Source: Candidatus Fibrimonadaceae bacterium (GTDB taxonomy: Bacteria; Fibrobacterota; Fibrobacteria; Fibrobacterales; Fibrobacteraceae). From it: a DNA stretch of 34,152 nucleotides. Shown piece by piece: positions 317-31,085 of this stretch (its first letter is position 1; each line of letters begins with the position of its first letter). The position numbers were made by a program, and so were the translations under genes. The DNA lies in contig JAITFT010000207.1 in assembly GCA_031281155.1 (NCBI GenBank), forward strand, positions 1-34,152, written 5' to 3'. The notes beneath the pieces were generated by a model, which saw nothing but the letters and a program-made list of their open reading frames with translations, searched no databases and was not told the DNA's origin.

Positions 317-327
317 AATATAGAAAA
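317..327 (-). promoter_or_regulatory. Promoter -10-type element for the acidic protein gene
   Basis: On the minus strand this reads TTTTCTATATT, matching the element found upstream of most units here. The hexamer ends about 29 nt before the ATG at 287, which would give a leader of roughly 20-25 nt carrying the GGGGGT ribosome-binding sequence. Confidence 0.5.
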
Positions 328-340
328 TCGTTTTATAACT

Positions 341-350
341 TTTCTATCTT
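341..350 (+). promoter_or_regulatory. Promoter -10-type element for tmRNA
   Basis: TTTCTATCTT ends 12 nt before the mature tmRNA 5' end at 363. Because this is an RNA gene, the motif cannot be a translation signal, so it anchors the interpretation of the recurring motif as a core promoter. No TTGACA-like -35 is visible 17 bp upstream. Confidence 0.6.
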
Positions 351-362
351 AGCACCAAGCAC

Positions 363-707
363 GGGGGTGCTTTGGTTTCGACAGGATTCCAGATGCGCTA
401 GTTGCATGCCGAGGTGGGCTGGCCTCGTAAAAAGCCCGAAAAAGATAATCGGCAACGATTACGCAATCGCTGCTTAAACAGCAGCGCCGAATTTTCTCCC
501 TCTCCCGCTGGGTGAAGCATTCGGCCGCAATGCGGGATAGAGTCTTGCGCTTGCCTGAACGCAAAGCTCGAAATTCTCAGGCTGGCTTTTGCTCTGCGCT
601 AACCTTTACGGGCGTTTACAAAGGCGAGACTTTAAATGCAAAGGAAACGCATGTATGAGCGAACGCAAACAGAATTTTGGACAGGGGTTCGACTCCCCTC
701 ACCTCCA
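363..707 (+). ncRNA. ssrA: tmRNA (transfer-messenger RNA)
   Basis: tmRNA rescues stalled ribosomes by acting first as an alanyl-tRNA and then as a short message. The acceptor strands GGGGGTG (363-369) and CACCTCC (700-706) pair over 7 bp, with discriminator A707. The T arm is GGGGTTCGACTCCCC, and the GGTTTCGACAGGA block that follows the 5' acceptor strand is the conserved tmRNA 5' signature. GCATGCCGAGGTGGGCTGG and CCTCGTAAAAAGCCC match the conserved helix before the tag region. The tag reading frame is 451-477, giving GNDYAIAA then TAA, preceded by ATAATC where E. coli has ATAGTC. The 3' CCA is not encoded, because GTT follows A707. Length is about 345 nt, normal for a one-piece tmRNA. Confidence 0.96.
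451..477 (+). other. tmRNA proteolysis tag reading frame
   Basis: The codons GGC AAC GAT TAC GCA ATC GCT GCT TAA encode GNDYAIAA; with the charged alanine the tag would be A-GNDYAIAA. The resume codon is Gly. The end is AIAA, where most bacterial tags end ALAA. The frame is fixed by the conserved ATAATC just before it and by the stop after the double alanine. Confidence 0.85.
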
Positions 708-725
708 GTTTTTTAAAATAAACCC

Positions 726-753
726 TAAAGTTTCATTGCGTTGCTGCCGATAT
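726..753 (+). promoter_or_regulatory. Sigma-28 (FliA/SigD)-type promoter of the yjfB-like gene
   Basis: TAAAGTTT (726-733) and GCCGATAT (746-753) are separated by 12 bp. This is nearly the flagellar sigma factor consensus TAAAGTTT-N11-GCCGATAA. It lies 28 bp before the ATG of the small motility protein gene. Confidence 0.75.
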
Positions 754-781
754 TCAAGAGACCTTTAACGGAGAAACAGTC

Positions 782-970
782 ATGGAAATGGATATTGCAA
801 AATTAGCGACAGCTCAAAAGGCTACGCAATTAAACAACGCCGTTGGCATAGCAGTGCTTAAACAAGCCCAGCAAGCTGCCGAGCAAGGAGCCTTAACACT
901 CTTGCAAGCAATGCCCCAAGCTCCGCCTGCTGTAAACGGAATAGGGCAAACTGTGGATGTTTCGGTTTAA
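782..970 (+). CDS. YjfB-family putative motility protein
   Basis: A 62-residue protein resembling the YjfB_motility family: an N-terminal MDIAKLA, an amphipathic helix with Gln and Ala (KATQLNNAVGIAVLKQAQ), then LLQAM, a proline-rich turn and a C-terminal GQTVDVSV strand. The family is linked to motility but its molecular role is unknown. GGAG at 770-773 lies 8 nt before the ATG, which supports M1 over M3. The sigma-28-type promoter upstream is independent support for co-expression with flagellin. The gene is monocistronic and converges on the aldo/keto reductase gene with an 11-nt gap. Confidence 0.8.
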   Translation: MEMDIAKLATAQKATQLNNAVGIAVLKQAQQAAEQGALTLLQAMPQAPPAVNGIGQTVDVSV

Positions 971-981
971 AACCTTGCCTT

Positions 982-2328
982 TTAAACGTCTCGCTTTAAT
1001 TCCTCGGTGAATTTATCAATACGCTGCATTTCCATGGGGATATTAATTCTTTGCGGGCAGTCTTTTACGCAAATTCCGCAACCAGTGCATCTGTTTGCCT
1101 GGCGCCTGGGAGAGACTCTTCGATCTTGCCCAATTAGGAATGCGCGGCGGGCTCTTCGGTAGTCGGCATCTTGCCTATCATCTGGGAAGTTGCCTTCGTT
1201 TAGGCTGCGATTAAAGTGCGTGATTATTTCCGGTATATCTAAGCCGTAGGGGCAGGGCATGCAGTACTGGCAACTTGTGCAGTTTATGTTGCGGTATTCA
1301 ATCGCAATTTGCGCAACCTGCTCAAGCATGGCATGTTCTTTTTCGGTAAGCGAAACGAGTGGTGAGTAGGTGTGTATATTGTCTTGCAGATGCTCCATAA
1401 AAGTCATGCCGCTAAACACCGTAAGCACGTTGGGCAAATCTCCCGCAAAGCGAAACGCCCACGATGCATCGCTGGCGTTTTGGTCGGCTTGCTTCATCAT
1501 GGCTCTTGCCTTGTAGTGCGGCATTGCCAAGCGGCCACCCAAAAGCGGTTCCATAATCATAGCGGGAACATTCCTTTCAGCAAGAATTTCGTACTGGCGC
1601 CTAGCGTTTATGCTGGTACGCCTAGGATTATCAACATGCTCCCAATCCAGATAATTCAACTGGATCATCACAAAATCCCAATCGTACTTGCCAGACATCA
1701 TGTATTCAAAAAAATCACCATCGCCATGAAAAGACCAGCCTAGCTGACGAATACGACCTGCCTTCTTTTCTTCTATCAGAAAATCCAAAATACCGTTGTC
1801 GAGAAAACGCCCTTTAAAATTATCGTGATTACCAACATTATGCACAAGGTAATAGTCAATATAGTCCACCTTCAAATCTTCAAACTGTTTCTCGTACATT
1901 CTAAGCGAGGCTTCTCGGCTCCAATCGCTTTGATTTGACATTTTGGTAGAGACAAAAAATTTGTCGCGCGGGTGGCGACTCAAAGCTATGCCCGTTGCGC
2001 TTTCGGAAAAACCTTTGCAATATCTCGGCGATGTGTCAAAAATATTCACCCCGCGTGCAATGGAGTGATCCACTAATTCGTTAACCATTTCCTGGTCAAG
2101 GTCGTTATCGCCAACCAAAGATTCTCTTTGTGCCCTGGCTACCCGCGGAAGCCTCATCATGCCAAAGCCCAAAAGCGATATTTTGCTACCAGTTTTTTGG
2201 TCGAGCCTATAGGCCATTTCACCGGCAGGTACTGCACGAGTTAAAGAAGAAGCGCTCCGCTCGCACCCGCCCAAAGCAGTCAAAGCAGTGCCAGCGCCAA
2301 CAAGTTTAATAAATTTACGGCGATCCAT
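982..2328 (-). CDS. Tat-type lipoprotein aldo/keto reductase with two 4Fe-4S motifs
   Basis: A 448-residue NADPH-dependent oxidoreductase-like protein. Residues 1-22 (MDRRKFIKLV...ALGGC) carry a twin-arginine and a lipobox with Cys22, so export by Tat and lipidation are likely. The aldo/keto reductase barrel follows, with the catalytic tetrad visible as Asp98, Tyr103, Lys129 and His163. The C-terminus has two ferredoxin-like motifs, CxxCxxCxxxCP (Cys350, 353, 356, 359) and CTGCGICVKDCP (Cys414, 417, 420, 424), as in the known AKR plus 4Fe-4S family. I place the start at 2328 because it gives the signal sequence and lies 9 nt from a promoter element. An upstream in-frame ATG would run back through the palindromic promoter. 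Physiological substrate unknown. The gene is divergent from the GH57-like gene. Confidence 0.88.
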   Translation of the reverse strand: MDRRKFIKLVGAGTALTALGGCERSASSLTRAVPAGEMAYRLDQKTGSKISLLGFGMMRLPRVARAQRESLVGDNDLDQEMVNELVDHSIARGVNIFDTSPRYCKGFSESATGIALSRHPRDKFFVSTKMSNQSDWSREASLRMYEKQFEDLKVDYIDYYLVHNVGNHDNFKGRFLDNGILDFLIEEKKAGRIRQLGWSFHGDGDFFEYMMSGKYDWDFVMIQLNYLDWEHVDNPRRTSINARRQYEILAERNVPAMIMEPLLGGRLAMPHYKARAMMKQADQNASDASWAFRFAGDLPNVLTVFSGMTFMEHLQDNIHTYSPLVSLTEKEHAMLEQVAQIAIEYRNINCTSCQYCMPCPYGLDIPEIITHFNRSLNEGNFPDDRQDADYRRARRAFLIGQDRRVSPRRQANRCTGCGICVKDCPQRINIPMEMQRIDKFTEELKRDV

Positions 2329-2367
2329 ATTGGAATTAATGTAGAAAATTTCTACATTAATTCCAAT
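2329..2367. promoter_or_regulatory. Perfectly palindromic divergent promoter
   Basis: Two 19-bp arms are perfect reverse complements around a single central A. They fill almost the entire 41-bp gap between the two ATGs. Each strand carries TTTCTACATTAATTCC, giving a -10-type TACATT at 2353-2358 (+) and 2343-2338 (-). On each strand a TTGGAA lies 17 bp upstream of TACATT, a plausible -35. The hexamers end 11 nt (plus) and 9 nt (minus) before the start codons, so leaders would be only a few bases long. Confidence 0.65.
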
Positions 2368-2369
2368 CC

Positions 2370-4205
2370 ATGAAACTCGCCCTTGCCCTTTACCCTGTTT
2401 ACGATGTGCATAAAAAAAATGCCCACAGCATTGCCGCAAAGGCTTGGGCAGCAAGGATAATGGGGTTGCTATCGGGGAGGCAGAATTTAAAACTTACCGT
2501 ATTTTTCACTGGGCAAATGCTGGAGGCTTTGAATAAAGAGCATAAAAAAGAAGCAAAACAGTTGAAGAAATTGCTTGCAAGCAGGCAACTGGAGTTTTTG
2601 GGCGGTGCTTACAATGAAGCTGTGCTGCCGTTGTTCCCTGAAAAATTGCAGGAATTGCAATTGCAAAAGCACAGAGAGCTGCTCTCTAATTTTATGGAGC
2701 CATCGGGCTTTTTTTGCTCATCGCACGCTTGGGAAATCGCCCTTATAGAAAGCCTTGAAAAAAGCGGTTTTTTATATGCTCTTATGCCAGATATTTCCGT
2801 TCAAGAAGCCTTGGGTAGAAAGTCTGCGGTGGCGGGTTGGTTTGCCGCAGAATACGGCGGCTCTTTTATGCGAATATTAACCTATTCTCAAAACTTATCT
2901 TTTGTTTGCCAAAATTCAAAAAGAGCAGATATAGTAAATTCGCTGAAAAATGTCAAAAGCTCGAATGGCGTGAATTGCATTCTCTTGAGCATAAATTTAG
3001 ATGAAGCCGTGTCTAACAACGAGTGGTTGCAGGCCGTGGATACGGCAAAAGCAGAGGGTTTAGATATAGAGCATTGCTTGCTTTGCCAAATAATTGAGCA
3101 AAAAGCAACGGGCAAGGTGAATTTAATCAGTTACTCGCTATCTGCGCCCAGCTCTCGCGATATTCTTCTGCGAATGCCTGAGATAAATGTTTTGCATAAG
3201 AGAATTTTGAATGTATATTCCAAAGCCTGCTTGTTAAGTGACTCCGAAACAAAAGAAGAGGTTTTTGAGAGTTTGCTAGAGGCAATGCAGCAGAGCTATT
3301 TCAAAAACACAGCAGATGGAATGCTGCGCGATTCCGTTAGGTTTTACGCAAATCGCTCGGTACTGGAAGCGGAAAAAATTCTGCGAGATTTCGATGCACA
3401 AGAAGGAATTCGCTTTGCGAGAGCGAATTTTTTATTAGATGGAAACCAACAATTAAACTTTAGCAACCCGCATTTAGAATGCTTAATTGAACCTGCTTTT
3501 GGCGGCTATATCCGCTCGCTCTCATACAGGCCCTCTCTCTCGGAACTTGCCTGCTCCATGCGCGACGATGGCGAAGTTTCACCGCTTTTTCTGGAGCATA
3601 TTTGCCCCGTTGAATTTGAAAATATAGCCCAAAGAAATTTATGGATTAGCGATAGGCTAGGCGCATTGCAAAATCCCTACGAAAGCTCCATTAAAAAGCA
3701 AGAGGATAAAATTCAGGTATTAATGGAGAGCGAGCAAAATATATCATATTTGGGCAAAGACTATTCCTTTAAAGCAGAAAAGGTTTTTAGCATAAAAAAC
3801 AGCGAAGCAGATATGACAGCAAGCATTTCCATAACGAATGCTTCTTTCAATGCGCTCAAAGGAGAATTCGCAACGGAGCTTTGCCTAGGTTTTAGAAACG
3901 ATGACCGCGGGCAAACACTTAAAATCGAGGGCAAAAAAATAAAGCTCAAACAAGGCGATGGTTTTTACACCAATGTAAAAAAAATCAATTTTAAAGACAG
4001 GTTTTTGGGCATAGGCGCAGATATTGAAATGAGCAAAAGCGCAAATATTTTATGCGTACCCATTTTAGGGCTTGGCTCACTCGCCACTCCAGACACAGTG
4101 CAAGGGCTTAGGCTCGCCATTTTCCGCAAGGTAAATTTAAAAGGGCAAGAATCTGAAACCTTCCACTTGCGTATTCGCTTGAACGGAGGAGGCTTTTTCT
4201 CATGA
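2370..4205 (+). CDS. GH57/4-alpha-glucanotransferase homologue, probably catalytically inactive
   Basis: A 611-residue protein aligning by eye with the archaeal-type GH57 4-alpha-glucanotransferase family over its whole length. LEFLGGAYNEAVLPLFP (residues 75-90) matches the family's GGxYEPxxxxxP block, LPEINVLHKRILNVYSKA-like sequence around 269-286 matches its PExNxxHKRML block, and LECLIEPAFGG through LSYRP (369-388) matches the DUF1926 beta-sandwich. However, the family nucleophile Glu in TERVW is replaced by Ser118 in SSHAW. The acid/base Asp region (HDDGEKFG) reads SINLDEAV near 207-214, and the N-terminal HxHQP motif is YPVY. It may therefore bind glucan without cleaving it. It overlaps the next gene by 4 bp (ATGA), so the two are probably translationally coupled. 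Confidence 0.72.
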   Translation: MKLALALYPVYDVHKKNAHSIAAKAWAARIMGLLSGRQNLKLTVFFTGQMLEALNKEHKKEAKQLKKLLASRQLEFLGGAYNEAVLPLFPEKLQELQLQKHRELLSNFMEPSGFFCSSHAWEIALIESLEKSGFLYALMPDISVQEALGRKSAVAGWFAAEYGGSFMRILTYSQNLSFVCQNSKRADIVNSLKNVKSSNGVNCILLSINLDEAVSNNEWLQAVDTAKAEGLDIEHCLLCQIIEQKATGKVNLISYSLSAPSSRDILLRMPEINVLHKRILNVYSKACLLSDSETKEEVFESLLEAMQQSYFKNTADGMLRDSVRFYANRSVLEAEKILRDFDAQEGIRFARANFLLDGNQQLNFSNPHLECLIEPAFGGYIRSLSYRPSLSELACSMRDDGEVSPLFLEHICPVEFENIAQRNLWISDRLGALQNPYESSIKKQEDKIQVLMESEQNISYLGKDYSFKAEKVFSIKNSEADMTASISITNASFNALKGEFATELCLGFRNDDRGQTLKIEGKKIKLKQGDGFYTNVKKINFKDRFLGIGADIEMSKSANILCVPILGLGSLATPDTVQGLRLAIFRKVNLKGQESETFHLRIRLNGGGFFS

Positions 4206-4870
4206 GCGAAAAAATTGACTTTGCCATGGAAATTTCAAAGAACGAAACTTTGATTGAGCTTAAGGGGCTTTTAAGAGAAGAGCATTTGCCAGCCGTGCGC
4301 AAGTTGTTGTTTTCTCCGATTGATGGTCTTAATAAAATTTACTTTGTGGATATTGAGCAGGCTAAATTTAGGGATAAAAATTATTTAAATATGTTTTTGG
4401 ATCTTTTGAATTTTGTTAAGGGAAAGGGCACAGAGTTGGTGATTATTTTCCACAACGAAGAGTGCCGAGATTTTTTCAGTCAATTTTTCCATGTATTTAA
4501 AATATACGATTCAAGGGATTCCTACAGAAAAGATTCCGGTTTTTGGGAAAAGCTGAAAGCAACCGGCATAAGTTACCAAAGAAGCACCGGGCTAAGGCTT
4601 GCGCCGGGCATCACCATAGTCTTCCTCTTTTTGTTCGCAGGCTGGATTTTAACGCTATTCTCCATAATATCCAGCCAAGACAAAGATATTCGCGAACGCG
4701 AAAAAAGCCTAAAAGAATTGCAAATCAACTACATGCGCTCAATTCAGGCTTTGGAGCAATTAAAAAATTCCGTTGCTCCGCTTAAAAGCATGGGTTTTGA
4801 TATAGACACTTCCGGAAACTTACCGCTTGGCGCTATAAGCGATTGGCAGGAGTTTTTGCTAAATCCCTAA
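4202..4870 (+). CDS. STAS-like protein with a transmembrane anchor and coiled coil
   Basis: A 222-residue protein. Residues 1-105 alternate strands and helices like a STAS domain (anti-sigma antagonist/MlaB type): IELKGLLREEHLPAV, then IYFVDIEQAKFRDKNYLNMF, then ELVIIFHNEECRDFF. I see no DSSGL-type phosphorylatable serine; the corresponding position reads EQAKF, so a classic partner-switching role is doubtful. A transmembrane segment spans about 135-157, followed by a charged coiled coil at 160-190 and a short C-terminal tail. It is coupled to the GH57-like gene by a 4-bp overlap, so the two products probably work together. Its last 38 bp overlap the 3' end of purN on the other strand. Confidence 0.6.
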   Translation: MSEKIDFAMEISKNETLIELKGLLREEHLPAVRKLLFSPIDGLNKIYFVDIEQAKFRDKNYLNMFLDLLNFVKGKGTELVIIFHNEECRDFFSQFFHVFKIYDSRDSYRKDSGFWEKLKATGISYQRSTGLRLAPGITIVFLFLFAGWILTLFSIISSQDKDIREREKSLKELQINYMRSIQALEQLKNSVAPLKSMGFDIDTSGNLPLGAISDWQEFLLNP

Positions 4871-5396
4871 TTACCTGCCAGTAAGTGTTATGCTCCTCTC
4901 GCAAAACACGCTCGGCTAAACTTTCCGGCGTATCGCTGGGCAGAACAGGCACTGCGGCTTGGGCTATAATGCGGCCAGCATCGTAATCTTTGTTAACGAA
5001 ATGCACGGTTAGGCCCGTAATTTTCACCCCTGCTTCAATTACCTTTTTATGAACGTGCATGCCATAACAGCCTTTGCCGCCAAAGGCGGGCAAGAGCGAT
5101 GGATGGATGTTTATTATTTTGTTTTCAAAATGCTCAAGAACGCTTTCAGAAATTTTTCGCATATAGCCTGACATAACAACCAAATCTGGATTTTCACTCT
5201 GTAGAACCGAAAGCAAATTATCGCCTTCAACCAAGCGAACAGGCACGCTGTACTTATTTGCCACATCTATAGCCTTGCTACCGGCTGGCGTTATAAGGCT
5301 TATGCACTGAGCAACGAGCTCTTTTGAGGCTATGCGTTGCATAATCGCCTCAAAGTTGCTGCCTCTCCCTGCGGAGAGCATTGAGAATTTAAGCAT
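4833..5396 (-). CDS. purN: Phosphoribosylglycinamide formyltransferase
   Basis: PurN transfers a formyl group from 10-formyltetrahydrofolate to GAR, the third step of purine synthesis. This 187-residue protein is of normal length. It shows the phosphate-binding SAGRGSNFEAI (residues 8-18), NIHPSLLPAFGG with Asn96 and His98, and VHFVNKDYDAGRIIAQ with Asp139, the usual catalytic triad positions. The promoter element TTTTTCTACCTT ends 7 nt before the ATG and there is no Shine-Dalgarno, so the mRNA is probably leaderless. It is divergent from the flippase gene and convergent, with a 38-bp overlap, with the STAS-like gene. Confidence 0.93.
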   Translation of the reverse strand: MLKFSMLSAGRGSNFEAIMQRIASKELVAQCISLITPAGSKAIDVANKYSVPVRLVEGDNLLSVLQSENPDLVVMSGYMRKISESVLEHFENKIINIHPSLLPAFGGKGCYGMHVHKKVIEAGVKITGLTVHFVNKDYDAGRIIAQAAVPVLPSDTPESLAERVLREEHNTYWQVIRDLAKTPANRL

Positions 5397-5403
5397 GAGT
5401 AGA

Positions 5404-5424
5404 AAGGTAGAAAAATTCTATATT
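5404..5424. promoter_or_regulatory. Compact divergent promoter, purN / flippase
   Basis: Back-to-back elements: minus-strand TTTTTCTACCTT (hexamer 5409-5404) and plus-strand AATTCTATATT (hexamer 5419-5424). Their centres are 15 bp apart. The hexamers end 7 nt before the purN ATG and 15 nt before the flippase ATG. Neither gene has a Shine-Dalgarno sequence. Confidence 0.55.
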
Positions 5425-5439
5425 ACTTTGCACTAACAA

Positions 5440-6948
5440 ATGACTCCTTCCGAAAACAATAAACGCATTGCCAAGAATACGCTGTTTCTCTATTTTCGCA
5501 GCATATTAACTATGTGCGTAGGGCTTTATACGAGCCGCGAAGTGCTGGCGCAGCTGGGTGTTGAAGATTTTGGAATATACAGCATTGTTGGCAGCGTTAT
5601 AATTCTATTCAGTTTTATTCAAAATGCTATGAACAGCGCAACGAGCAGGTTTTTCACTTTTGATTTGGGAAAAGGCGATTTTGAAAAATTAAAACAAACC
5701 TTTAGCTTGAGTATTATGATTCATGTTTTCACAGCGCTTATAATTTTAATTCTGGGTGAAACTGTTGGCCTTTGGTTTTTAAATACCAAGCTCATTATAC
5801 CTGCTGAAAGAATGGAAGCGGCAAACTTTGTTTATCAATTCACAATTTTCGCTGCCTGCATTGGCATTTTACAAATGCCATATATGGCAGCAATTAATGC
5901 TCACGAACGAATGAAAATTTATGCTTTTACTGGCATTGCTGATTCCATATTTAAACTTGTGATTGTGCTTTCTCTAGCTTTTGTGTCTGTTGATAAACTA
6001 AAAATTTATTCTGTTCTGTTATTTGCAGTTTATGCAATTATGGCTGTTTTTTATATGATTTATTGCCAGAGAAATTTTAAGGAAACGCATTTTAAATGGT
6101 TTTGGAACAAGAAGCTCTTTTTGGAAAGAATGGGATTTAGCGGCTACGAATTTTTAGGGGGCGTTTCTGGAGTATTGGCAGTGCAGGGCGGAGTTGTTTT
6201 GATAAACCGCTTTTATGGAGTTTTGCTGAATGCGGCAAACGGCGTTGCTACGCAAGTGTTAGGTATAGCAAGCCAGTTTATGAGCAACTTTTTTGCGGCA
6301 ATAGCCCCGCAGATAACGAAATTTTTGGCGGCTGGCGAAATGGATTATTTTTATAATTTGGTAATTCGCGCAAGCAAATTCTGCTTTTTGCTTTCTTTTA
6401 TGATTTTGGTGCCTTTGGCTTTGCAAATGGATTATGTTTTGAGTTTATGGTTAAAAATAGTTCCTGACTACGCTGAAATTTTCTGCCAATTGAGCATAGT
6501 AAATGTATTGGTGTATTCTGCTTTTATTCCTGTTTGGCATGGAATAATTGCTTCTGGCAAAAATAAAAGGTTCCGAACTATAGATAGCCTTATGGTTATG
6601 CTTATGTTTCCGCTTATGTATTTCGGTTTGCATTTTTCGCCTATTGGTTATATATGTTCGCATATACTTATAAATATTTTCAGAGTAATTTACGCTGCGT
6701 TTTCGCTTCGCGGGCTTACCGGTTTTTCCATTCGCAGGTTAATCAGCCAATCTTTAATTAAATGTTTTTTAGTTGGAACAATTTCCATTCCGTTGCCGCT
6801 TTACATTAGTTTGAGAATGGATGGATGGCAGGGATTTTTAGCATGTTGCTCTGCTTTTGTAACGGTGTTTGCTGTGAGCGCTTTGTTTTTAGGCTTGAAT
6901 AAAAGCGAAAGAGGCACTTTGTTTTCTTTTGTGAAATCAAAGCTATAG
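5440..6948 (+). CDS. Wzx/MATE-type polysaccharide flippase
   Basis: A 502-residue polytopic membrane protein with about 12 hydrophobic segments. The opening NTLFLYFRSILTMCVGLYTSR and the block QLGVEDFGIYSIVGS are typical of the MOP-superfamily lipopolysaccharide or O-antigen flippases found in Bacteroidetes and relatives. It would move lipid-linked oligosaccharides across the inner membrane. No glycosyltransferase cluster adjoins it, so it looks like a stand-alone family member. It is noticeably AT-rich, and its first ATG follows a promoter element by 15 nt without a Shine-Dalgarno. It ends 9 nt before the stop of the convergent AAA-ATPase gene. The substrate cannot be read from the sequence. 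Confidence 0.82.
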   Translation: MTPSENNKRIAKNTLFLYFRSILTMCVGLYTSREVLAQLGVEDFGIYSIVGSVIILFSFIQNAMNSATSRFFTFDLGKGDFEKLKQTFSLSIMIHVFTALIILILGETVGLWFLNTKLIIPAERMEAANFVYQFTIFAACIGILQMPYMAAINAHERMKIYAFTGIADSIFKLVIVLSLAFVSVDKLKIYSVLLFAVYAIMAVFYMIYCQRNFKETHFKWFWNKKLFLERMGFSGYEFLGGVSGVLAVQGGVVLINRFYGVLLNAANGVATQVLGIASQFMSNFFAAIAPQITKFLAAGEMDYFYNLVIRASKFCFLLSFMILVPLALQMDYVLSLWLKIVPDYAEIFCQLSIVNVLVYSAFIPVWHGIIASGKNKRFRTIDSLMVMLMFPLMYFGLHFSPIGYICSHILINIFRVIYAAFSLRGLTGFSIRRLISQSLIKCFLVGTISIPLPLYISLRMDGWQGFLACCSAFVTVFAVSALFLGLNKSERGTLFSFVKSKL

Positions 6949-6957
6949 AAAACAGGG

Positions 6958-8568: not shown

Positions 8569-8575
8569 TAGGGGT

Positions 8576-8586
8576 AAGATAGAAAA
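8576..8586 (-). promoter_or_regulatory. Promoter element, leaderless start of the AAA-ATPase gene
   Basis: The minus strand reads TTTTCTATCTT then ACCCCTA then ATG. The hexamer ends 7 nt before the start codon, which puts the expected transcription start on the ATG. Confidence 0.6.
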
Positions 8587-8604
8587 CTTAAGGATTAAAA
8601 TATT

Positions 8605-8637
8605 AAAAAAATCCCCCACCTGAAGGTGGAGGATTTT
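8605..8637 (-). terminator. Intrinsic terminator of flagellin
   Basis: AAATCCCCCACCT and AGGTGGAGGATTT form a long stem with one mismatch and a tetraloop. On the minus strand the stem is followed by T's (complement of A8605-8610). It lies about 70 nt past the flagellin stop and insulates the AAA-ATPase promoter. The A/T arms make it possibly bidirectional. Confidence 0.85.
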
Positions 8638-8655
8638 GCTCGCCTGCTGCGGTAA

Positions 8656-8682
8656 CAGTAGGAAGCAAAATTGCCCCTACTG
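8656..8682. repeat. REP-like palindrome downstream of flagellin
   Basis: CAGTAGG pairs with CCTACTG around an inner GCAA/TTGC stem. Read on the minus strand it has the form CAGTAGGGGCAA...TTGC, similar in style to the GTAGGGG-headed palindromes at 9794-9884. It lies between the flagellin stop and its terminator. Confidence 0.5.
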
Positions 8683-8709
8683 CCCCCTACAAGGAGTTTT
8701 TTCTTAGTT

Positions 8710-9588: not shown

Positions 9589-9606
9589 TGTGAGTTACCT
9601 CCGTGT

Positions 9607-9651
9607 AGGGTTCAAAAACTGCGGACTTCCTTGTCTGCAGCGCTAAACCCT
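9607..9651 (-). promoter_or_regulatory. Structured leader element of flagellin mRNA
   Basis: On the minus strand AGGGTT (9651-9646) pairs with AACCCT (9612-9607). Inside it a second helix, CTGC-GAC with GTC-GCAG, pairs 9640-9633 with 9626-9619. The element ends 5 nt before the GGAGGT ribosome-binding site. It may affect mRNA stability or translation. I could not match it to a named riboswitch. Confidence 0.5.
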
Positions 9652-9702
9652 TTCCGACACTCGCCGGCAACCCAGATTCAGCATTTGGCTCTTTAGTCTA
9701 TG

Positions 9703-9730: not shown

Positions 9731-9793
9731 GCAAAATTTATTTTTTAGGGAAAATTAGCCGTTTTTTGTGAAATTCCCTATACCCAAGTTGCT

Positions 9794-9884: not shown

Positions 9885-9896
9885 AGCGAGGAGAGT

Positions 9897-10642: not shown

Positions 10643-10654
10643 GCGTTAACCTCT

Positions 10655-10978: not shown

Positions 10979-11004
10979 TGCTGCCTCACTAAGGGGTTTG
11001 GGGT

Positions 11005-11015
11005 AATATAGAAAA
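11005..11015 (-). promoter_or_regulatory. Promoter element of the zapB-zapA-fliJ operon
   Basis: The minus strand reads TTTTTCTATATT, a close match to the recurring element. The hexamer ends 26 nt before the zapB ATG, leaving a short leader with a GAGG ribosome-binding site. Confidence 0.55.
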
Positions 11016-11056: not shown

Positions 11057-11067
11057 TTTTCTATTTT
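11057..11067 (+). promoter_or_regulatory. Promoter element of the toxin-antitoxin operon
   Basis: TTTTCTATTTT is a slightly weaker match to the recurring element. It lies 17 nt before the antitoxin ATG, with AGAGGT in between. It is divergent from the zapB promoter. Confidence 0.4.
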
Positions 11068-18763: not shown

Positions 18764-18820
18764 GTAATGTAGAAAAATGCGGGCTGCGATTAATCGCAAC
18801 CCCGCATTTTTCTACATTAC
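18764..18820. promoter_or_regulatory. Large palindromic divergent promoter, nuoG / response regulator
   Basis: Two 20-bp arms (18764-18783 and 18801-18820) are perfect reverse complements. They enclose a second perfect palindrome, TGCGATTAATCGCA (18785-18798). Each arm carries TTTTTCTACATTAC with the -10-type hexamer at 18771-18766 (-) and 18813-18818 (+). On both strands the hexamer ends exactly 7 nt before the ATG. The inner palindrome could bind a dimeric regulator or be a REP-like remnant. Confidence 0.65.
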
Positions 18821-20067: not shown

Positions 20068-20078
20068 AATTCTATATT
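20068..20078 (+). promoter_or_regulatory. Promoter element of glucokinase
   Basis: AAATTCTATATT ends 31 nt before the glk ATG. The intervening leader contains AAGGAG, so this unit follows the SD-led layout. Confidence 0.55.
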
Positions 20079-22264: not shown

Positions 22265-22286
22265 AGGGGGTGTGCCTGCGCCTGCA

Positions 22287-23861: not shown

Positions 23862-24255
23862 CTTCGCCGCCGGTTCTTTGCAGGCTTTTCTCTGTGTATT
23901 GATGAACCTCGAAAGCGTTTCCGTCTGGGTCTGTGAGCCAAACTTGATAAGTGTTATCGCACCCTAATTTTTTGCCCGTATGCGAAATACCTTTTACACT
24001 AAGCTCGTCAATAAAAACATCGATATCTTTGCATTCAAGGCAAAAATGCACAATCCCTGCCGTATTCACAGGAGCGTCCATATCTGGGTTTTCAAAAAGC
24101 TCTATATAATGATTAGGGCAAATTTCAAGATAATGCCCATAGTGCTTACCCTGCTTGGTAAATTTAAATCTTGGTTTAAACCCTAGTTTTTGGTAAAAAG
24201 CCATTGAGCGTTCCAGGCTCCTAACATTGAGACAAATATGAGCAAGTGATAGCAT
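23845..24255 (-). CDS. VOC/glyoxalase-family protein
   Basis: A 136-residue vicinal-oxygen-chelate protein built of two beta-alpha-beta-beta-beta modules. Module one runs from LAHICLNVRSLERSMAFYQKLGF to YIELFEN, and module two from GIVHFCLECKDIDVFIDEL to TDPDGNAFEVHQY. Likely metal ligands are His6, Glu52/53, His69/70 and Glu114/115 (numbering by eye). It resembles lactoylglutathione lyase but is too generic for a firm substrate. The start is 7 nt from a promoter element without a Shine-Dalgarno. It is followed by the barrel gene with a 17-bp overlap. Confidence 0.85.
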   Translation of the reverse strand: MLSLAHICLNVRSLERSMAFYQKLGFKPRFKFTKQGKHYGHYLEICPNHYIELFENPDMDAPVNTAGIVHFCLECKDIDVFIDELSVKGISHTGKKLGCDNTYQVWLTDPDGNAFEVHQYTEKSLQRTGGEVEADW

Positions 24256-24262
24256 AGGCGGT

Positions 24263-24284
24263 AATGTAGAAAAATTTCTACCTT
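24263..24284. promoter_or_regulatory. Compact divergent promoter, VOC protein / lytic transglycosylase
   Basis: GTAGAAA and TTTCTAC arms share one short palindrome. The minus hexamer TACATT is at 24268-24263 and the plus hexamer TACCTT at 24279-24284. Each ends exactly 7 nt before its ATG (24255 on minus, 24292 on plus). The whole intergenic region is only 36 bp. Confidence 0.65.
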
Positions 24285-24291
24285 CCTCGCC

Positions 24292-26082
24292 ATGACCGTT
24301 AAATATACCAGCGTGGCACTACTAGCTTGCGTATTATGTCAGTTGTCATCAGCCAGCCCCATTTACCCGCAGGCTACGCCGCAATTGCCAACTGCCATCA
24401 GCTTTGCAGGAACGAGAGAATTGGCAAGCGGGAACGCAGATGCCGCATTGATTGCGATTAAGGCAGATTCACCGTGGGCAGATTCGCAGCTTTGGCTCTA
24501 CAAGTTTGGAGTAATAAACGCCCGTTTGGGCAATACCGCCGAGGCTGTTGAAGCACTTAACACTGTCAGCAGCACCTGCCAAACCCTAAGGCCGCTTGCC
24601 ATGGAGCAAATTGGCGATATAGCTGTTGAGCAGAAGGATTTTCCTCAGGCAATGACTTCTTACAGTTCGGTTCTCGGCGTTGCCGAGTTGCCGGAACAGT
24701 ATCGGCACGAGTTGTTCCGCAAAATTAAATCTGTTATCGGCAATGGCATTGCGTTGCCGCCGAACGCTTCTTGGATTGATGAGTACCATCAGTGGGAGCA
24801 GGAGCAGCAACAGGCACTCACTGCAACGAAGCCTGAAACTGTTTGCGATTCACTCTGTCGAGTGCAGAATACTTTGTGGTCGCGTGCGTGGAATTTGGAG
24901 ATGGCCAATAATTTCAAGGCAGCGATTACAAATTACAGGAGCGTTTTTAACATAAGCGGCAGGCGCACAGAAGAGGCGCACATTCGCCATGCGCTGTGCT
25001 TTTATAAACTCGGTAAATATGATAGCGTTATAGTCCATATCAATACATTCAAGCAGGCGTTTCCGGGCTCAACTTTTTTCTGGGCGGCTATGTTCTGGCA
25101 AGGCAAGGCATACGCTGCGCAAGGCAATACGGAAGAAGCGCACAAGGTTTGGAATCAGATTGCGCGTCTCAACCCATTCGACTATCATGCCCACCGCGCA
25201 ATGCAGCTAATGGGCATGGCCGATAAGGGCACAGGCAAGTACCACGCTGCGCCACCAAATGTGAAGCCTATATCGGAGAACGCGGTGCGGGAATGGCTCG
25301 ACTCCGTGCCACCACCATTGTCAACGCCGCGAAAAGATTTTGCAAAAGCCGACAGCGTTGCCCTGCGGCGCGGTGCGGCTCTGCTATCGGTGGCACAAGC
25401 GAACACCGCCGTATTCTTTCTCGACGATTATCAGAACAACTACCCAGGCAATCTGCTACTGCAGTACGATCTTGCCAGCTCCTATGCAATTGCCGGCAGT
25501 ATCGGGCGAGCCTTTAATGTTGGCCGCCGTTTGGCGTGGCGCATTCCAACAACGCATCGCGAGAATATACCCTTGCAGGTACAGTCTGTGATATACCCGC
25601 CGTTCTATGCGGCAACAATTAGCAAGTACGCAAAGCGTTTCAATGTTGATCCGCTTTTTGTAAGCGCAGTGATGCGCCAGGAGAGCATCTTCGATTCGAG
25701 CCTCGTTTCCATCGCTGGTGCCATCGGACTGATGCAGGTAATGCCAGCCACGGGCAGGAAAATCGCTGCGGAGCTAAAAGAGAAAAACTTTGCGACAGAT
25801 TCCCTGTTCAATACCGATTTAAGTATTCGCTACGGCGTTTATTATCTGCGCAAACGAATGATTCAATTCAACGGCGACTTTGTGCTGGCTCTATGCGCCT
25901 ACAACGCCGGTGCCAACAACGCTATTAAGTGGCGCGACCGAAACCGCAATGTAGATTACGATATTTTCGCCGAAAACATTGCTTTTTTAGAAACGCGCGG
26001 ATACGTCAAAAGGGTTTTAGGAAATTATTGGACATATCAGCGGCTTGTGTCCACGCCTGGGTATGAATATAAGGGGGAGTGA
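24292..26082 (+). CDS. Slt-type lytic transglycosylase with TPR-like repeats
   Basis: A 596-residue periplasmic enzyme that cleaves peptidoglycan to give 1,6-anhydro-muropeptides. A signal peptide spans about residues 1-22. A helical solenoid with TPR-like units fills about 40-420 (for example AEAVEALNTVSSTCQTL, AYAAQGNTEEAHKVWNQI). The C-terminal SLT domain follows, with MRQESIFD containing catalytic Glu464, then GAIGLMQVMPATG and ALCAYNAGANNAIKW. The order matches Slt70. It appears richer in G+C than its neighbours. It is probably leaderless, with the ATG 7 nt after the promoter hexamer. Confidence 0.93.
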   Translation: MTVKYTSVALLACVLCQLSSASPIYPQATPQLPTAISFAGTRELASGNADAALIAIKADSPWADSQLWLYKFGVINARLGNTAEAVEALNTVSSTCQTLRPLAMEQIGDIAVEQKDFPQAMTSYSSVLGVAELPEQYRHELFRKIKSVIGNGIALPPNASWIDEYHQWEQEQQQALTATKPETVCDSLCRVQNTLWSRAWNLEMANNFKAAITNYRSVFNISGRRTEEAHIRHALCFYKLGKYDSVIVHINTFKQAFPGSTFFWAAMFWQGKAYAAQGNTEEAHKVWNQIARLNPFDYHAHRAMQLMGMADKGTGKYHAAPPNVKPISENAVREWLDSVPPPLSTPRKDFAKADSVALRRGAALLSVAQANTAVFFLDDYQNNYPGNLLLQYDLASSYAIAGSIGRAFNVGRRLAWRIPTTHRENIPLQVQSVIYPPFYAATISKYAKRFNVDPLFVSAVMRQESIFDSSLVSIAGAIGLMQVMPATGRKIAAELKEKNFATDSLFNTDLSIRYGVYYLRKRMIQFNGDFVLALCAYNAGANNAIKWRDRNRNVDYDIFAENIAFLETRGYVKRVLGNYWTYQRLVSTPGYEYKGE

Positions 26083-26089
26083 AGATTAA

Positions 26090-28474
26090 CTAAAACAACT
26101 CTTCCATTACTTCATCGATATGCTTAAACATCTTTATTTCAAGCCCGTTTTTAACAATGTCGGGGAGGTCTTCCACATTTTTTTGATTGTCCTTTGGCAA
26201 AAAAAGTTTTTTCACGCCAGAGTCGAAAGCGGCCAAGGATTTTTCTTTTAAACCGCCTATCGCAATTAAACGGCCAACCAAACTTACTTCGCCTGTAAAC
26301 GCAACAAATGGCGAAACAACCTTTCCTGTGAAAACCGAAAGCATGGCTATGGAAATCGCTATGCCGGCAGAAGGACCGTCTTTTGGAGTTGCACCCTCTG
26401 GGAAATGCAAATGAACATCGCATTTGCGGAATTTTTCTTCTGGAATTTTATATTTCTTTGCTCGTTCCCTAATGATAGAAAGGGCTATTTGAGCGGATTC
26501 CTTCATTACATCGCCTAAATGTCCGGTTAATTGCAGCTTTCCCTTGCCAGGCAAAAGCACGCATTCAATATGCAAAACATCGCCGCCAACGGGAGTCCAT
26601 GCCAAGCCTGTTGTAACACCCAAACGCTTTTCGTCTATAAGGCGCGGGCTCGCAAAATCTGGAACGCCCAAGTAAGTTGAAAGATGCTTTTGAGCAATTT
26701 GCGGAGTGAACTTTTTCTTTGAAATTAATTCCATCGCACGCTTGCGAGCCATTGTTTCCAGCTTTCTTTCCAGCTCTCTAACACCCGCCTCTCTTGTGTA
26801 TTCACGCAAAATTCCGTTAATGGCAGAATCTGCAACTTTGAATTGCTTTGCAGTAAGCGAGCTTTGCTTTAAAACTTTCGGTATTAAAAAATCACGCGCT
26901 ATAAATTCTTTTTCAAAATTCAAATAACCCGGTATCCGCACTATTTCCATTCGATCGTAGAGAGGGCCAGGAATGCCGTCTGGCGTGTTGGCGGTTGCAA
27001 CAAAAAATACTCTTGAAAGATCTACGCCAACTTCCATAAAATGATCGTTGAACTCCGTGTTTATTTCAGGATCTAAAACTTCGAGAATTGCGCTTGCGGG
27101 GTCGCCTCTGAAATCTCTCGACATTTTGTCGATTTCATCTAATAGAATGAGAGGGTTCATGCTTTTGGCTTTGCGAAGAGCCTGCACTATGCGCCCCGGC
27201 ATTGAGCCAATGTAGGTGCGGCGATGACCGCGGATTTCTGCATCGTCGTGAACTCCGCCAAGAGATATGCGTGCCAGGTTTCTGTTCATGGCATGAGCTA
27301 TGGACATGGCAAGAGTGGTTTTGCCAACGCCCGGCGGACCTACCAGGCAAAGTATGGGGCTTTTTACATCTGTGTTTTTTTGCTTTTGCGCCAATTGCAA
27401 AACAGCTATATGCTCCAAAATTCTTTCCTTAACTTTTTCCAAACCAAAATGCTTCGAGTTCAAGCTATCCGTTGCTCTTGAAATATCCAAAACATCTTCG
27501 GTATAAGTGCCAAAAGGCAAAGCGAGCAACCAGTCAATGTAGTTGCGAACCACGGTATATTCTGGGTTCATTGGGTTAAGAAGTTTTAGGCGCGCCATTT
27601 CTTCGTCGAATTTTTCTTTTATAGCAGGCGGGAATTTTTGCGACTTGGCTTTCTTTGAAAAATTCTCATTATCTTGGCCGCCGGAATTTATTTCTTCAAG
27701 TTCTTTTTGCAGTTGGGAAATTTGCTCTTGCAGCATCCACTCTCTTTGAGAACGCTGCATTTTCATTTCCGTTTGCTGCCTGTTCAGAGTGATAACCCTG
27801 TAAACTTCCATTGCCGTGGATATTGCCAAATCTATTTTCGCATACATCTCCTCTATGGAGGTGCTTTCCAAAATCTCCTGATGCTCTTCGTCTGGAATTC
27901 TCAGAAAGCTGTGGGCTATAAGGCAACGTTCTTCTGGCGGTATGCTTTTTAAAATATCCCTCAAGTTATCTGGCAGGTTACTTTGCTTCTTTGCATATTG
28001 TTCCATTGAAAGGAGCAGATTCTCAGCCAAGGGCTTTGCCAGTTTTTTATCTTTGAGATCTAAAAGGCGCGGTTGCGCAAAGCCGAAGAAATATTGGTCG
28101 GCATCTTTTTCCATTAAGGAAACGTTGCTTATATCAACGGGCAGAATACCAAATAGATTCACCAGGAGCAGGTTGTTCGGAGTTCCGGAAATACCCTTTA
28201 CATAAGCAAGGATACCAACAGAATGCAGCTCCTCCACTGCCGGCATGCTAACGTCTCTGTTTTTTTGCAGAGTGCAAAGCACAAAGCCTTTTGAATCCTC
28301 TATACGCCTCAGAGCGTTCAGAGTTATTTGTCTATCAAAAGAGAGCCGCGTTCCCATTCTCGGAAACATCACGAATTTCTGCAAAGGCACAATGGGGAAT
28401 CCCTTCTCAAAATCCGGCTGAGGGAACTGAGTATTCTCTTTGCTTATTATATTTTCAGGTTTTTCTTGTGTCAA
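26090..28474 (-). CDS. lon: ATP-dependent protease Lon
   Basis: A 794-residue protein of normal length. The N-terminal substrate-binding LAN domain begins FPIVPLQKFVMFPRMG. Walker A is GPPGVGKT and Walker B ILLDEIDK. The protease domain carries KDGPSAGIAI with Ser702 and GGLKEKS with Lys745, the 43-residue Ser-Lys dyad spacing of Lon. The start is a TTG at 28474 preceded 9 nt upstream by AGAGGA. No in-frame ATG exists before residue 36, where the LAN domain has already begun. It is divergent from the GT9-like gene. I saw no clear heat-shock (CIRCE) element in the 78-bp gap. Confidence 0.97.
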   Translation of the reverse strand: MTQEKPENIISKENTQFPQPDFEKGFPIVPLQKFVMFPRMGTRLSFDRQITLNALRRIEDSKGFVLCTLQKNRDVSMPAVEELHSVGILAYVKGISGTPNNLLLVNLFGILPVDISNVSLMEKDADQYFFGFAQPRLLDLKDKKLAKPLAENLLLSMEQYAKKQSNLPDNLRDILKSIPPEERCLIAHSFLRIPDEEHQEILESTSIEEMYAKIDLAISTAMEVYRVITLNRQQTEMKMQRSQREWMLQEQISQLQKELEEINSGGQDNENFSKKAKSQKFPPAIKEKFDEEMARLKLLNPMNPEYTVVRNYIDWLLALPFGTYTEDVLDISRATDSLNSKHFGLEKVKERILEHIAVLQLAQKQKNTDVKSPILCLVGPPGVGKTTLAMSIAHAMNRNLARISLGGVHDDAEIRGHRRTYIGSMPGRIVQALRKAKSMNPLILLDEIDKMSRDFRGDPASAILEVLDPEINTEFNDHFMEVGVDLSRVFFVATANTPDGIPGPLYDRMEIVRIPGYLNFEKEFIARDFLIPKVLKQSSLTAKQFKVADSAINGILREYTREAGVRELERKLETMARKRAMELISKKKFTPQIAQKHLSTYLGVPDFASPRLIDEKRLGVTTGLAWTPVGGDVLHIECVLLPGKGKLQLTGHLGDVMKESAQIALSIIRERAKKYKIPEEKFRKCDVHLHFPEGATPKDGPSAGIAISIAMLSVFTGKVVSPFVAFTGEVSLVGRLIAIGGLKEKSLAAFDSGVKKLFLPKDNQKNVEDLPDIVKNGLEIKMFKHIDEVMEELF

Positions 28475-28519
28475 AGCGCTTTATCCTCTAATATCCTCTA
28501 CTTAGCAAGGCACGGCAGA

Positions 28520-28542
28520 AATATAGTAAATTTTTCTATATT
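28520..28542. promoter_or_regulatory. Divergent promoter, lon / GT9-like gene
   Basis: The plus strand has TTTTTCTATATT (hexamer 28537-28542), 10 nt before the ATG at 28553. The minus strand has TTTACTATATT (hexamer 28525-28520), giving lon a leader of about 38 nt that includes its AGAGGA. Centres are 17 bp apart. Confidence 0.55.
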
Positions 28543-28552
28543 ACCTTACCAA

Positions 28553-29611
28553 ATGCCTGCTCTGCCGTTTATTAAAAGTTTTCGCTGGTTTCTTATGCGT
28601 TTCCGCTCAGAGCGGTCTATAAGGCGTTGGTTTGAAAAAAAGAGCGGTGGCAGAAATGAAATGTTTAAATATAGCGACGATATTTCAAAATATAAAAGAA
28701 TAGTTGTTTTTTTGCCTGCAGAACAAGATAAATTTTACGCCATATTGCCATTTGCTCTAGCTCTCTTTGAAAAACGGGGCCGAGATAATTTTTTAGCCAT
28801 AACAGATGAAAAAAATCGCTATATATTGAGAGCGCTTTATTTGGAACACGCCTCTCTTTTTTATAATAGCGAAGCAATGCTTTATGGCAACCCAGATTTC
28901 TTTGAAATGGAAAAAAGGCTACAAGAGCAAAAATGGGATTTATGCCTTTTCTTGCAAGAAGATGCCGAACTCCCCTACCTGTACCTGGCAAGGATAACTC
29001 GCGCCTCTTACCGCATGGGAATAAACCCAGATTTTCCTTTTTTGAATATCGCCTTGCAAAATTCTTCAAAGAACAATAACATTTACGCAAACCGAAATTT
29101 TCTCTATAAATCTTTTCTCATAGACCCTGAAAAAGCCGAAAGCGAAAGCATTCTCGCAACTCAGAAAAACGAGAAAATGGTCAGTAGCCAAAAACTCTCC
29201 ACATCGAATACCTTATTGCTGAATTTAGAGCCGCCCGCTGATGGCGAGCCTTGGGCAGAAAGTGAAATCTCAATGCTTTGCAAAGCTTTTCAACCAACTT
29301 GGCGTCTCATAGCCATCGCTGCCGACCCAAAGCGACTTGAGCCTTACTCCAAAATAATGGAAGAATTCGACATACGCAGCAACCCCGTGCTTTTGCACTC
29401 GGAATCCATATTCAGCGTGCTTCGGCAATACCCTGCCATAATAACTCTAAACTCCGTGCACTCGCATTTGTTTTTGAATTTAAGCCGCATAAAAATAATT
29501 ATGCTTGAACAAAACGATACCGATATTCCAAACAACAACAGGTTGCTGAAGTTCGGTCGCGATGGGAATTTTTATTCACTCTCAAGGCTAGCAGCAGATT
29601 TTATAAAATGA
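28553..29611 (+). CDS. Divergent glycosyltransferase family 9-like protein
   Basis: A 352-residue protein with a Rossmann-like outline. YKRIVVFLPAEQDKFYAILPFALALFEK opens the first domain, then KWDLCLFLQED, TLLLNLEPP, WRLIAIAADP and AIITLNSVHSHLFLNLSRIKIIML. The last block resembles the heptosyltransferase segment TxDTGPxHLA, but key residues differ. I start at 28553 because a promoter element lies 10 nt upstream, whereas a longer in-frame ORF would overlap lon on the other strand. It precedes ispH by 16 nt on the same strand. It could also be an unrelated two-domain hypothetical protein. Confidence 0.5.
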   Translation: MPALPFIKSFRWFLMRFRSERSIRRWFEKKSGGRNEMFKYSDDISKYKRIVVFLPAEQDKFYAILPFALALFEKRGRDNFLAITDEKNRYILRALYLEHASLFYNSEAMLYGNPDFFEMEKRLQEQKWDLCLFLQEDAELPYLYLARITRASYRMGINPDFPFLNIALQNSSKNNNIYANRNFLYKSFLIDPEKAESESILATQKNEKMVSSQKLSTSNTLLLNLEPPADGEPWAESEISMLCKAFQPTWRLIAIAADPKRLEPYSKIMEEFDIRSNPVLLHSESIFSVLRQYPAIITLNSVHSHLFLNLSRIKIIMLEQNDTDIPNNNRLLKFGRDGNFYSLSRLAADFIK

Positions 29612-29627
29612 TTCTAGAGGTTGCCAA

Positions 29628-30551
29628 ATGAAGTGCTTTTTAGCAAAGCCCCGCGGCTTTTGTGCAGGAGTTGAACGTGCTATTTTGATGGTGGAAAAAT
29701 CCATAGAGAAATTCGGCAAGCCTGTGTATGTGAGGCACGAAATTGTGCACAATCGTTTCGTAGTTGATAACCTGCGAAAAATCGGCGCTATTTTTATTGA
29801 GGAACTGCCGGAGGTGCCAGAAGGTTCGGTTGTTGTTTTTTCCGCTCATGGCGTTGGCAAAAAAATTTACGAAGAAGCAGAAAGAATGCAATTAAAGGTT
29901 ATAGATGCAACATGCCCCATTGTAGAATCTGTTCATAAGAGCGTTATTAAATACGCAAATTCCGATTGCTTTATAATTTTAATCGGCCACCAAGGGCACG
30001 CAGAAATAGACGGCACAATAGGGCAATTGCCGCCTGGCAGAATACATTTGATAAACTCCGTTGAAGATGTCCAAAATTTGCCAGCTTGCCAAAAAGACGT
30101 TGCTTACCTAACTCAAACCACGCTTTCTACCGAAGAAACCGCAGATATTATATTCGCATTGAAAGAAAAGTACCCACATATCCAAGGTTCAAAAACAGGG
30201 AATGTATGCTATGCCACAACCAACAGGCAGAATGCTATTCGCTCTATATGCAAAAAAGTAGAGCTGCTACTAGTGGTTGGCTCTCAAAACTCAAGCAATT
30301 CAAACCGCCTGCGCGAGCTTGGCGAGGCGCAAGGCGTTAAGAGCATTTTAATAGATTCCGTTGAAGACTTGGGCAAAGATATGTTTGCGAGCATAAGCTC
30401 TGTTGGAATATCCAGCGGAGCAAGCGCGCCAGAGCATTTGGTTTTGGAAATTATAGAATGGCTAAAGGAGCACTTTGGCCTCGAAGAAATTATAGAAGTA
30501 CAGACAGCAGAAGAAACAACAAAGTTCTCGCTACCGCCAGAGTTAGATTAA
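29628..30551 (+). CDS. ispH: 4-hydroxy-3-methylbut-2-enyl diphosphate reductase
   Basis: IspH makes IPP and DMAPP in the last step of the MEP isoprenoid pathway using a 4Fe-4S cluster. This 307-residue protein has the ligands Cys12 (PRGFCAGV), Cys96 (DATCPIV) and Cys194 (GNVCYATTNRQ). It also has the substrate residues His41, His74, Glu126 and Thr167, all in standard positions. AGAGGT lies 7 nt before the ATG. It probably shares the promoter of the GT9-like gene. It ends sharing the four bases TTAA with the stop of the convergent lipoprotein gene. It supplies precursors for the polyprenyl synthase encoded at 11655-12647. Confidence 0.96.
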   Translation: MKCFLAKPRGFCAGVERAILMVEKSIEKFGKPVYVRHEIVHNRFVVDNLRKIGAIFIEELPEVPEGSVVVFSAHGVGKKIYEEAERMQLKVIDATCPIVESVHKSVIKYANSDCFIILIGHQGHAEIDGTIGQLPPGRIHLINSVEDVQNLPACQKDVAYLTQTTLSTEETADIIFALKEKYPHIQGSKTGNVCYATTNRQNAIRSICKKVELLLVVGSQNSSNSNRLRELGEAQGVKSILIDSVEDLGKDMFASISSVGISSGASAPEHLVLEIIEWLKEHFGLEEIIEVQTAEETTKFSLPPELD

Positions 30552-31033
30552 GGAGGCCCTAAGTAAGAAAACTTTTCCGTGGGATAACGCATGGAGTTGG
30601 AGTTATAAAGCGATACTATGGCATCTCCTCTAGGAGTAGCGCTAGTCATAAGCAGTGTTTGCCCAGAATTTTGAATTTGCACTGTTCCATTTCTAACAAA
30701 ATCGTCACAGTCATTGCATCTCAGTTCTATTCTGTCTTGGTTTACTGCCCAAGCACCACCAACACCATAAGTGTTGGCAGGGTTATTAATGTCAAAATCG
30801 CAGTTGCCTTTAAAAGAGTAAACTTCTTTAGTAAAGGTCAATATTCCTGTGCACTCTCTTGTAATGGCATTTGTCGTTATATCTTCTAGTTGCCACCTGC
30901 CCTCAAGGCAACCTTTGCTAGGACCATTGGCGCAAAGCTCTTCACGTGTTAACTCTTTTCCATCATCACCTGAGCAAGCAGACAAAAAAAAGCCGAGAGA
31001 AACAAAAACGAAAAAAAGAAAGGACTTGTTCAT
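30548..31033 (-). CDS. Small lipoprotein, lipocalin-like fold possible
   Basis: A 161-residue protein with a clear lipoprotein signal (residues 1-20, FFLSAC with lipidated Cys20, followed by SGDD). The mature part has six more cysteines and alternating strands: GRWQLEDITT, RECTGILTFTKEVYSFKGNCDFD, DRIELRCNDCDDF and QTLLMTS. This resembles small lipocalin-like lipoproteins of the same phylum, but I do not recognise a named family. The promoter element ends 6 nt before the ATG and there is no Shine-Dalgarno. It is divergent from serS. Confidence 0.8.
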   Translation of the reverse strand: MNKSFLFFVFVSLGFFLSACSGDDGKELTREELCANGPSKGCLEGRWQLEDITTNAITRECTGILTFTKEVYSFKGNCDFDINNPANTYGVGGAWAVNQDRIELRCNDCDDFVRNGTVQIQNSGQTLLMTSATPRGDAIVSLYNSNSMRYPTEKFSYLGPP

Positions 31034-31039
31034 AGGGAT

Positions 31040-31085
31040 AATATAGAAAATTTCAACACAAAAATGCGGCGAATATTTCTATCTT
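31040..31085. promoter_or_regulatory. Divergent promoter, lipoprotein / serS
   Basis: The minus strand has TTTTCTATATT (hexamer 31045-31040) and the plus strand TATTTCTATCTT (hexamer 31080-31085). Both hexamers end exactly 6 nt before their ATGs. Here the two promoters are further apart (40 bp between centres) than in the compact pairs. Confidence 0.6.

Follow-up and report, generated by a model that had tools for sequence, protein, structure and literature searches.

The window analysed here, a 34,152-bp stretch of contig JAITFT010000207.1 (GenBank assembly GCA_031281155.1), carries a recurrent 10-bp element, TTTCTAYMTT, upstream of many of its genes. The element is very probably the sigma70-type -10 element of the Fibrobacteraceae lineage to which the host belongs. 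Genes with 6–9 nt between the end of the hexamer TA(T/C)(A/C)TT and the ATG (the spacer) are predicted to be transcribed as leaderless mRNAs, and genes with a spacer of 17–45 nt as leadered mRNAs with a Shine-Dalgarno sequence. Judged by its serS protein, the host is a Fibrobacterota genome of the Candidatus Fibrimonas kind, since this protein is 85–90% identical to those of Candidatus Fibrimonadales/Fibrimonas genomes and mostly 68–77% identical to those of other Fibrobacteraceae; the host genus originates presumably from the termite gut.

The host assembly comprises 2.57 Mb in 219 contigs. Genes were predicted with our own gene caller, which uses codon bias only and is blind to the motif, and all starts were taken from it. 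The caller was run on 966 kb of the host genome (G000; approximately 38% of the genome, on which the spacer statistics are based), on 392 kb of a second member of the genus (G113), and, within the same family, on 400 kb of a Fibrobacter-like genome (G001).

Evidence for a -10 element

The window contains 14 exact copies of TTTCTAYMTT, whereas 100 dinucleotide shuffles gave a mean of 0.61 and a maximum of 3; the host genome contains 735 exact copies, and 87 of the reversed pattern. All 18 copies that the original prediction had listed by eye are present, 14 of them exact and four (those of the flippase, antitoxin, glk and lon genes) with one mismatch each, and the hexamer-to-ATG distances given there agree with the spacers remeasured on the sequence. 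An expectation-maximization (EM) motif search upstream of starts, with no prior input, recovered (A/T)TTTCTA(T/C)(A/C)TT in 54% of the intergenic upstream regions of the host sample, so that the element is found upstream of genes elsewhere in the genome as well. The matrix obtained for the second genus member was nearly identical; in the Fibrobacter-like genome the motif was weaker, (c/t)TATATT, and its T-tract looser. The expectation that nearly all transcription units carry the element was too strong: it was not found upstream of fliC and ispH in the window, and in the genome sample 241 of the 470 starts that have 25 nt or more of intergenic DNA (approximately 51%) carry it within 100 nt (false-hit rate of 2% in shuffled sequence).

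The distances between element and start are bimodal, with 39, 31, 23 and 12 genes at spacers of 6, 7, 8 and 9 nt, respectively, and most of the other distances at 17–45 nt, where a second, lower hump lies at approximately 27–32 nt. There is a hard edge at 6 nt, with only three of the 241 spacers below it. Shine-Dalgarno pairing was predicted for 79% of the genes in the 17–45 nt class (12% in shuffled controls), and for none of the 94 genes at 5–8 nt and none of the 35 genes at 9–16 nt; the second genus member shows the same pattern. The spacers of the leaderless genes in the genome sample are rich in C (42%) and poor in G (10%), and often contain ACCCCC.

Twelve of 19 tRNA/tmRNA genes are preceded by the element, mostly 9–15 nt before the mature 5' end. 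In 20 cases, an exact TTGACA and a TA..TT hexamer are separated by 17 nt, compared with 1–6 cases at other spacings. The earlier statement that -35 boxes are mostly unrecognisable was right for the leaderless promoters, where a -35 box was not clearly above chance, and wrong for approximately 10% of the leadered promoters (9 of 94 with at least five -35 matches at 17 nt) and for several tRNA promoters, which have TTGACA at 17 nt. The position of the transcription start was predicted from leadered promoters, whose sequence is not constrained by a start codon: the share of purines rises abruptly at the 7th base downstream of the hexamer, and the pyrimidine-purine step is most frequent there (44 of 110 promoters; approximately 23 at positions 3–6 and 11). 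Initiation at this base would therefore place, at a spacer of 6 nt, the first nucleotide of the transcript on the A of the ATG.

These observations are consistent with an extended -10 element of the main sigma70-type promoter, composed of a T-tract, a C and the hexamer, with an optional -35 box. RNA polymerase would initiate approximately 7 nt after the hexamer, so that the mRNAs of genes with a spacer of 6–9 nt would begin at, or within approximately 3 nt of, the AUG, and their translation would not depend on Shine-Dalgarno pairing with the ribosome; at a spacer of 17–45 nt, genes would use the same -10 element and carry a short leader with a Shine-Dalgarno sequence. We infer the actual start sites, the leaderless translation and the sigma factor that reads the element from the sequence.

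Conservation in the family and candidate sigma factors

Ten genus-level relatives carry a TA..TT element approximately 6–7 nt before the ATG of serS, and the sequence further upstream is unrelated; nearly all of these elements read TTTCTAYATT, and one is TTTACTATATT (locus L009). The serS spacing is kept in almost all members of the genus. The serS loci of Fibrobacter have the TA..TT box further upstream together with a GAGG Shine-Dalgarno sequence, i.e. they are leadered.

The exact arrangement TTTCTAYMTT-N6-ATG was counted 134, 149, 134 and 75 times in the genomes of four members of the genus (control, 0–2), approximately 2–13 times in other genomes of the family, and 0–5 times elsewhere in the phylum. 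For the less strict TA..TT at a spacer of 6–9 nt, the excess over background amounts to 13.8% and 14.9% of the sampled starts in two genus members, to 6.1% in the Fibrobacter-like genome, and to 16.1% in a genome of another genus of the family (G094); in an outgroup of the same order (G092, 67% GC), the excess is 0.6% of starts and the leaderless spacing was not seen. Because the enrichment extends to two other genomes of the family, we take the leaderless spacing, as predicted from these genomes, to be a trait of the family, and the strict TTTCTAYMTT consensus to be a trait of the genus. Leaderless use confined to the genus is ruled out by the same enrichment; only the strict consensus is genus-enriched.

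Several points weigh against the interpretation as a -10 element of leaderless genes. The absence of Shine-Dalgarno sequences at spacers of 6–9 nt is partly mechanical, because at the shortest spacers the G-free element fills the Shine-Dalgarno window. The anti-Shine-Dalgarno sequence was assumed to be CCUCCUUU, because no 16S rRNA gene was found in the assembly from which the host's own sequence could be derived, and the start positions rest on our coding-bias gene caller. In one genus-level relative (L002), serS is not preceded by the element. Among orthologues of two genus members, six pairs were leaderless in both and nine were discordant, several of the latter depending on start calls that differ between the genomes or on weak variants of the motif; the pairs between the host and the Fibrobacter-like genome were too few for use. 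Because orthologue pairs are few and mixed, gene-by-gene stability of the predicted leaderless state is claimed for serS alone. The tRNA genes, the TTGACA at 17 nt, the peak at the 7th base, the cut-off at 6 nt and the serS loci together nevertheless support the original proposal of a -10 hexamer that would set the transcript start at the AUG.

Five host proteins with a sigma70 region 2 were found, i.e. three RpoD-like sigma factors with open frames of approximately 280–310 aa (G000:C204, G000:C77 and G000:C130), a FliA-type sigma factor, and a short one. The principal sigma factor may be a protein of 287 aa without region 1.1, which is a better candidate than the two other RpoD-like sigma factors. 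It shares 88–92% identity within the genus, 76% with one sister genus, and 49–58% with the rest of the family. In its region 2.4, the genus has WWVRQNIIKAINEKARLVRIS where the Fibrobacter-like genome has WWVRQNITRAIAEKGRMVRIS; a link between this change and the stronger C preceding the hexamer is no more than a lead. The gene itself has a deviating start-adjacent promoter, TTAAATTTG, approximately 5–6 nt before the ATG, unlike the TTTCTAYMTT class (loci L082 and L225–L232), and TTGACA or TGACA lies upstream of this promoter in several genus members.

Predicted divergent promoters in the genome and in the window

A single -10 element shared or overlapped by divergent starts was not found among the 57 divergent pairs within 60 nt in the genome sample, as a minimum of 8 nt separates the two hexamers in each of them. 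The most frequent gap is exactly 8 nt (14 of 57 pairs) and results in the palindrome AATRTAGAAATTTCTAYATT, in which TTTC is retained separately by each half; only two pairs face each other. The sequence TAGAAATTTCTA occurs 22 times in the host genome and 4–21 times in eleven genus relatives (control, 0–2). Modules with an ATG at leaderless distance on both sides number 12 in the host sample (control, 1) and seven in the sample of the second genus member; none were found in the 400 kb of the Fibrobacter-like genome or in 191 kb of G094. Most of these modules leave 33–41 bp between the two start codons, and a -35 region, if either promoter had one, would fall into the coding sequence of the partner gene. 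In the Fibrimonas-like genus, a compact -10 element and the lack of a leader may thus let divergent genes share such gaps with two promoters. A forbidden hexamer gap of 14–21 nt, suggested by the first sample, was dropped, since the second genome has such gaps.

The divergent modules bear on two other explanations. The element might be a real -10 whose proximal start yields a poorly translated RNA, the genes at spacers of 6–9 nt being translated from the mRNA of a second promoter upstream; a few upstream regions do hold a second weak match, but within gaps of 33–41 bp such a promoter would need to sit in the neighbouring coding sequence, and the longer mRNA would have no Shine-Dalgarno sequence to use, so that we regard this explanation as improbable. 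A binding site for a dimeric regulator, in place of two promoters, would account for the perfect dyad of the back-to-back palindrome AATGTAGAAATTTCTACATT at a fixed minimal spacing, and for flanking arms that reach 19–20 bp in two cases in the window; most copies of the element are single, however, the half-to-half spacing varies from 8 to 13 nt and beyond, and each half in the listed modules has a start codon at leaderless distance, which makes such a site slightly less credible still. Least credible is a translation signal within a longer leader that is transcribed from a point further upstream, with the element acting in ribosome binding as an A/U-rich region comparable to the sites without Shine-Dalgarno sequence in Bacteroidetes, which would fit the closeness of the element to start codons without Shine-Dalgarno sequence and the AT-rich non-canonical sites known from the FCB group (PMC9581028), but which is rejected on the promoters of tRNA and tmRNA genes and the linkage to TTGACA at exactly 17 nt, and is further opposed by the hard limit at 6 nt and by the copies 17–45 nt upstream of genes with a Shine-Dalgarno sequence.

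In the window, the candidate -10 elements are distributed as follows. The element of the acidic-protein gene (TTTCTATATT, 317–326, minus strand) has a spacer of 29 nt and is leadered; that of ssrA (TTTCTATCTT, 341–350, plus strand) precedes the tmRNA at 363–707, for which ARAGORN gave the tag GNDYAIAA. The AKR gene (start 2328; element 2338–2347, minus strand; spacer 9) and the GH57-like gene (start 2370; element 2349–2358, plus strand; spacer 11) are divergent, with 1 nt between their 10-mers. A perfect palindrome of 39 bp (2329–2367; arms of 19 nt, 1 nt between them) spans this divergent promoter and the sequence after both hexamers, which suggests an origin by inverted duplication. For the genes named purN-like (start 5396; element 5404–5413, minus strand) and flippase-like (start 5440; ATTCTATATT, 5415–5424, plus strand) in the original prediction, the spacers are 7 nt (predicted leaderless) and 15 nt. 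The AAA-ATPase/PD-(D/E)XK gene (start 8568; element 8576–8585, minus strand; spacer 7) is predicted to be leaderless. The small zapB-like gene (start 10978; element 11005–11014, minus strand; spacer 26) and the antitoxin gene (start 11085; TTTCTATTTT, 11058–11067, plus strand; spacer 17), both again named as in the original prediction, are leadered with GAGG.

Further along, nuoG (start 18758; element 18766–18775, minus strand) and the response-regulator gene (start 18826; element 18809–18818, plus strand) both have a spacer of 7 nt and are predicted to be leaderless. A perfect inverted repeat of 20 nt, GTAATGTAGAAAAATGCGGG, lies across their promoters (18764–18820), the nuoG element being in one arm, and a second, near-perfect inverted repeat of 11 nt lies between the arms. 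The glk gene (start 20110; ATTCTATATT, 20069–20078, plus strand; spacer 31) is leadered with AAGGAG. The VOC gene (start 24255; element 24263–24272, minus strand) and the Slt gene (start 24292; element 24275–24284, plus strand), each with a spacer of 7 nt, form the divergent module 24253–24294. The lon gene (start 28474; TTACTATATT, 28520–28529, minus strand; spacer 45) is leadered with GAGG, and the GT9-like gene (start 28553; element 28533–28542, plus strand) has a spacer of 10 nt. The lipoprotein gene (start 31033; element 31040–31049, minus strand) and serS (start 31092; element 31076–31085, plus strand) both have a spacer of 6 nt and are predicted to be leaderless.

Comparison with known systems

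Leaderless transcription is also known from archaea, and is reported to be rare in the FCB group (approximately 4–5% in the Bacteroidetes studied). The serS gene offers leadered and leaderless states within one family, and therefore the switch itself is open to study; further, the spacing provides a practical rule for start-codon placement in these genomes, and the divergent modules represent a very compact bidirectional promoter. Finely balanced, in our estimate, is the wider proposal that the Fibrobacteraceae are an unrecognised leaderless lineage, and that its Fibrimonas-like genus has evolved a stricter, autonomous 10-bp unit, TTTC-TAYMTT, which can do without a -35 box and can form abutting pairs (AATGTAGAAATTTCTACATT) that serve two leaderless genes across a gap of 33 bp, possibly with a co-evolved, fast-diverging sigma factor. 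Systems of this kind are already known; what looks new is the lineage, the consensus and the divergent modules with abutting elements. Literature searches on leaderless transcription in Fibrobacter or Fibrobacterota yielded no report, although Fibrobacter may have been classified in one of the large surveys (e.g. GeneMarkS-2).

Leaderless genes adjacent to a -10 element (TANNNT) have been described in Actinobacteria and Deinococcus-Thermus (Zheng 2011, PMC3160421; PMC12340547); Fibrobacterota gave no text match in these two papers and are not among the phyla of the 2011 survey. As in these groups, the -10 element of the host lies a few bp before the open reading frame without a Shine-Dalgarno sequence, the -35 box is optional, and the element cannot move too near to the start codon. 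The differences are the consensus TTTC-TA(T/C)(A/C)TT with T at the fifth position of the hexamer, the C-rich spacer, the Fibrobacterota host, and the strong Shine-Dalgarno class that stands beside the leaderless class on the same -10 element. The sigma-A promoter of Bacteroidetes has a -7 box, TAnnTTTG, and only 3.7–5.5% of the mRNAs there are leaderless or near-leaderless (PMC7366714, PMC9723704). Both share the core TAnnTT, which ends in T-T; in contrast to Bacteroidetes, the leaderless class of the host has no conserved TTTG tail (the base after the hexamer is A54/C29), TTTC is conserved upstream of the hexamer, and the upstream element is TTGACA at 17 nt instead of TTTG at -33. In the bidirectional promoters of Escherichia coli, one -10 element is shared or overlapped, and the commonest distances between the starts are 18, 10 and 23 bp (Warman et al.; PMC12825309). 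There, too, short symmetric DNA starts divergent transcription, whereas in the host two full 10-bp elements abut without overlap, approximately 33 bp lie between the predicted starts, and a leaderless product is predicted on either side.

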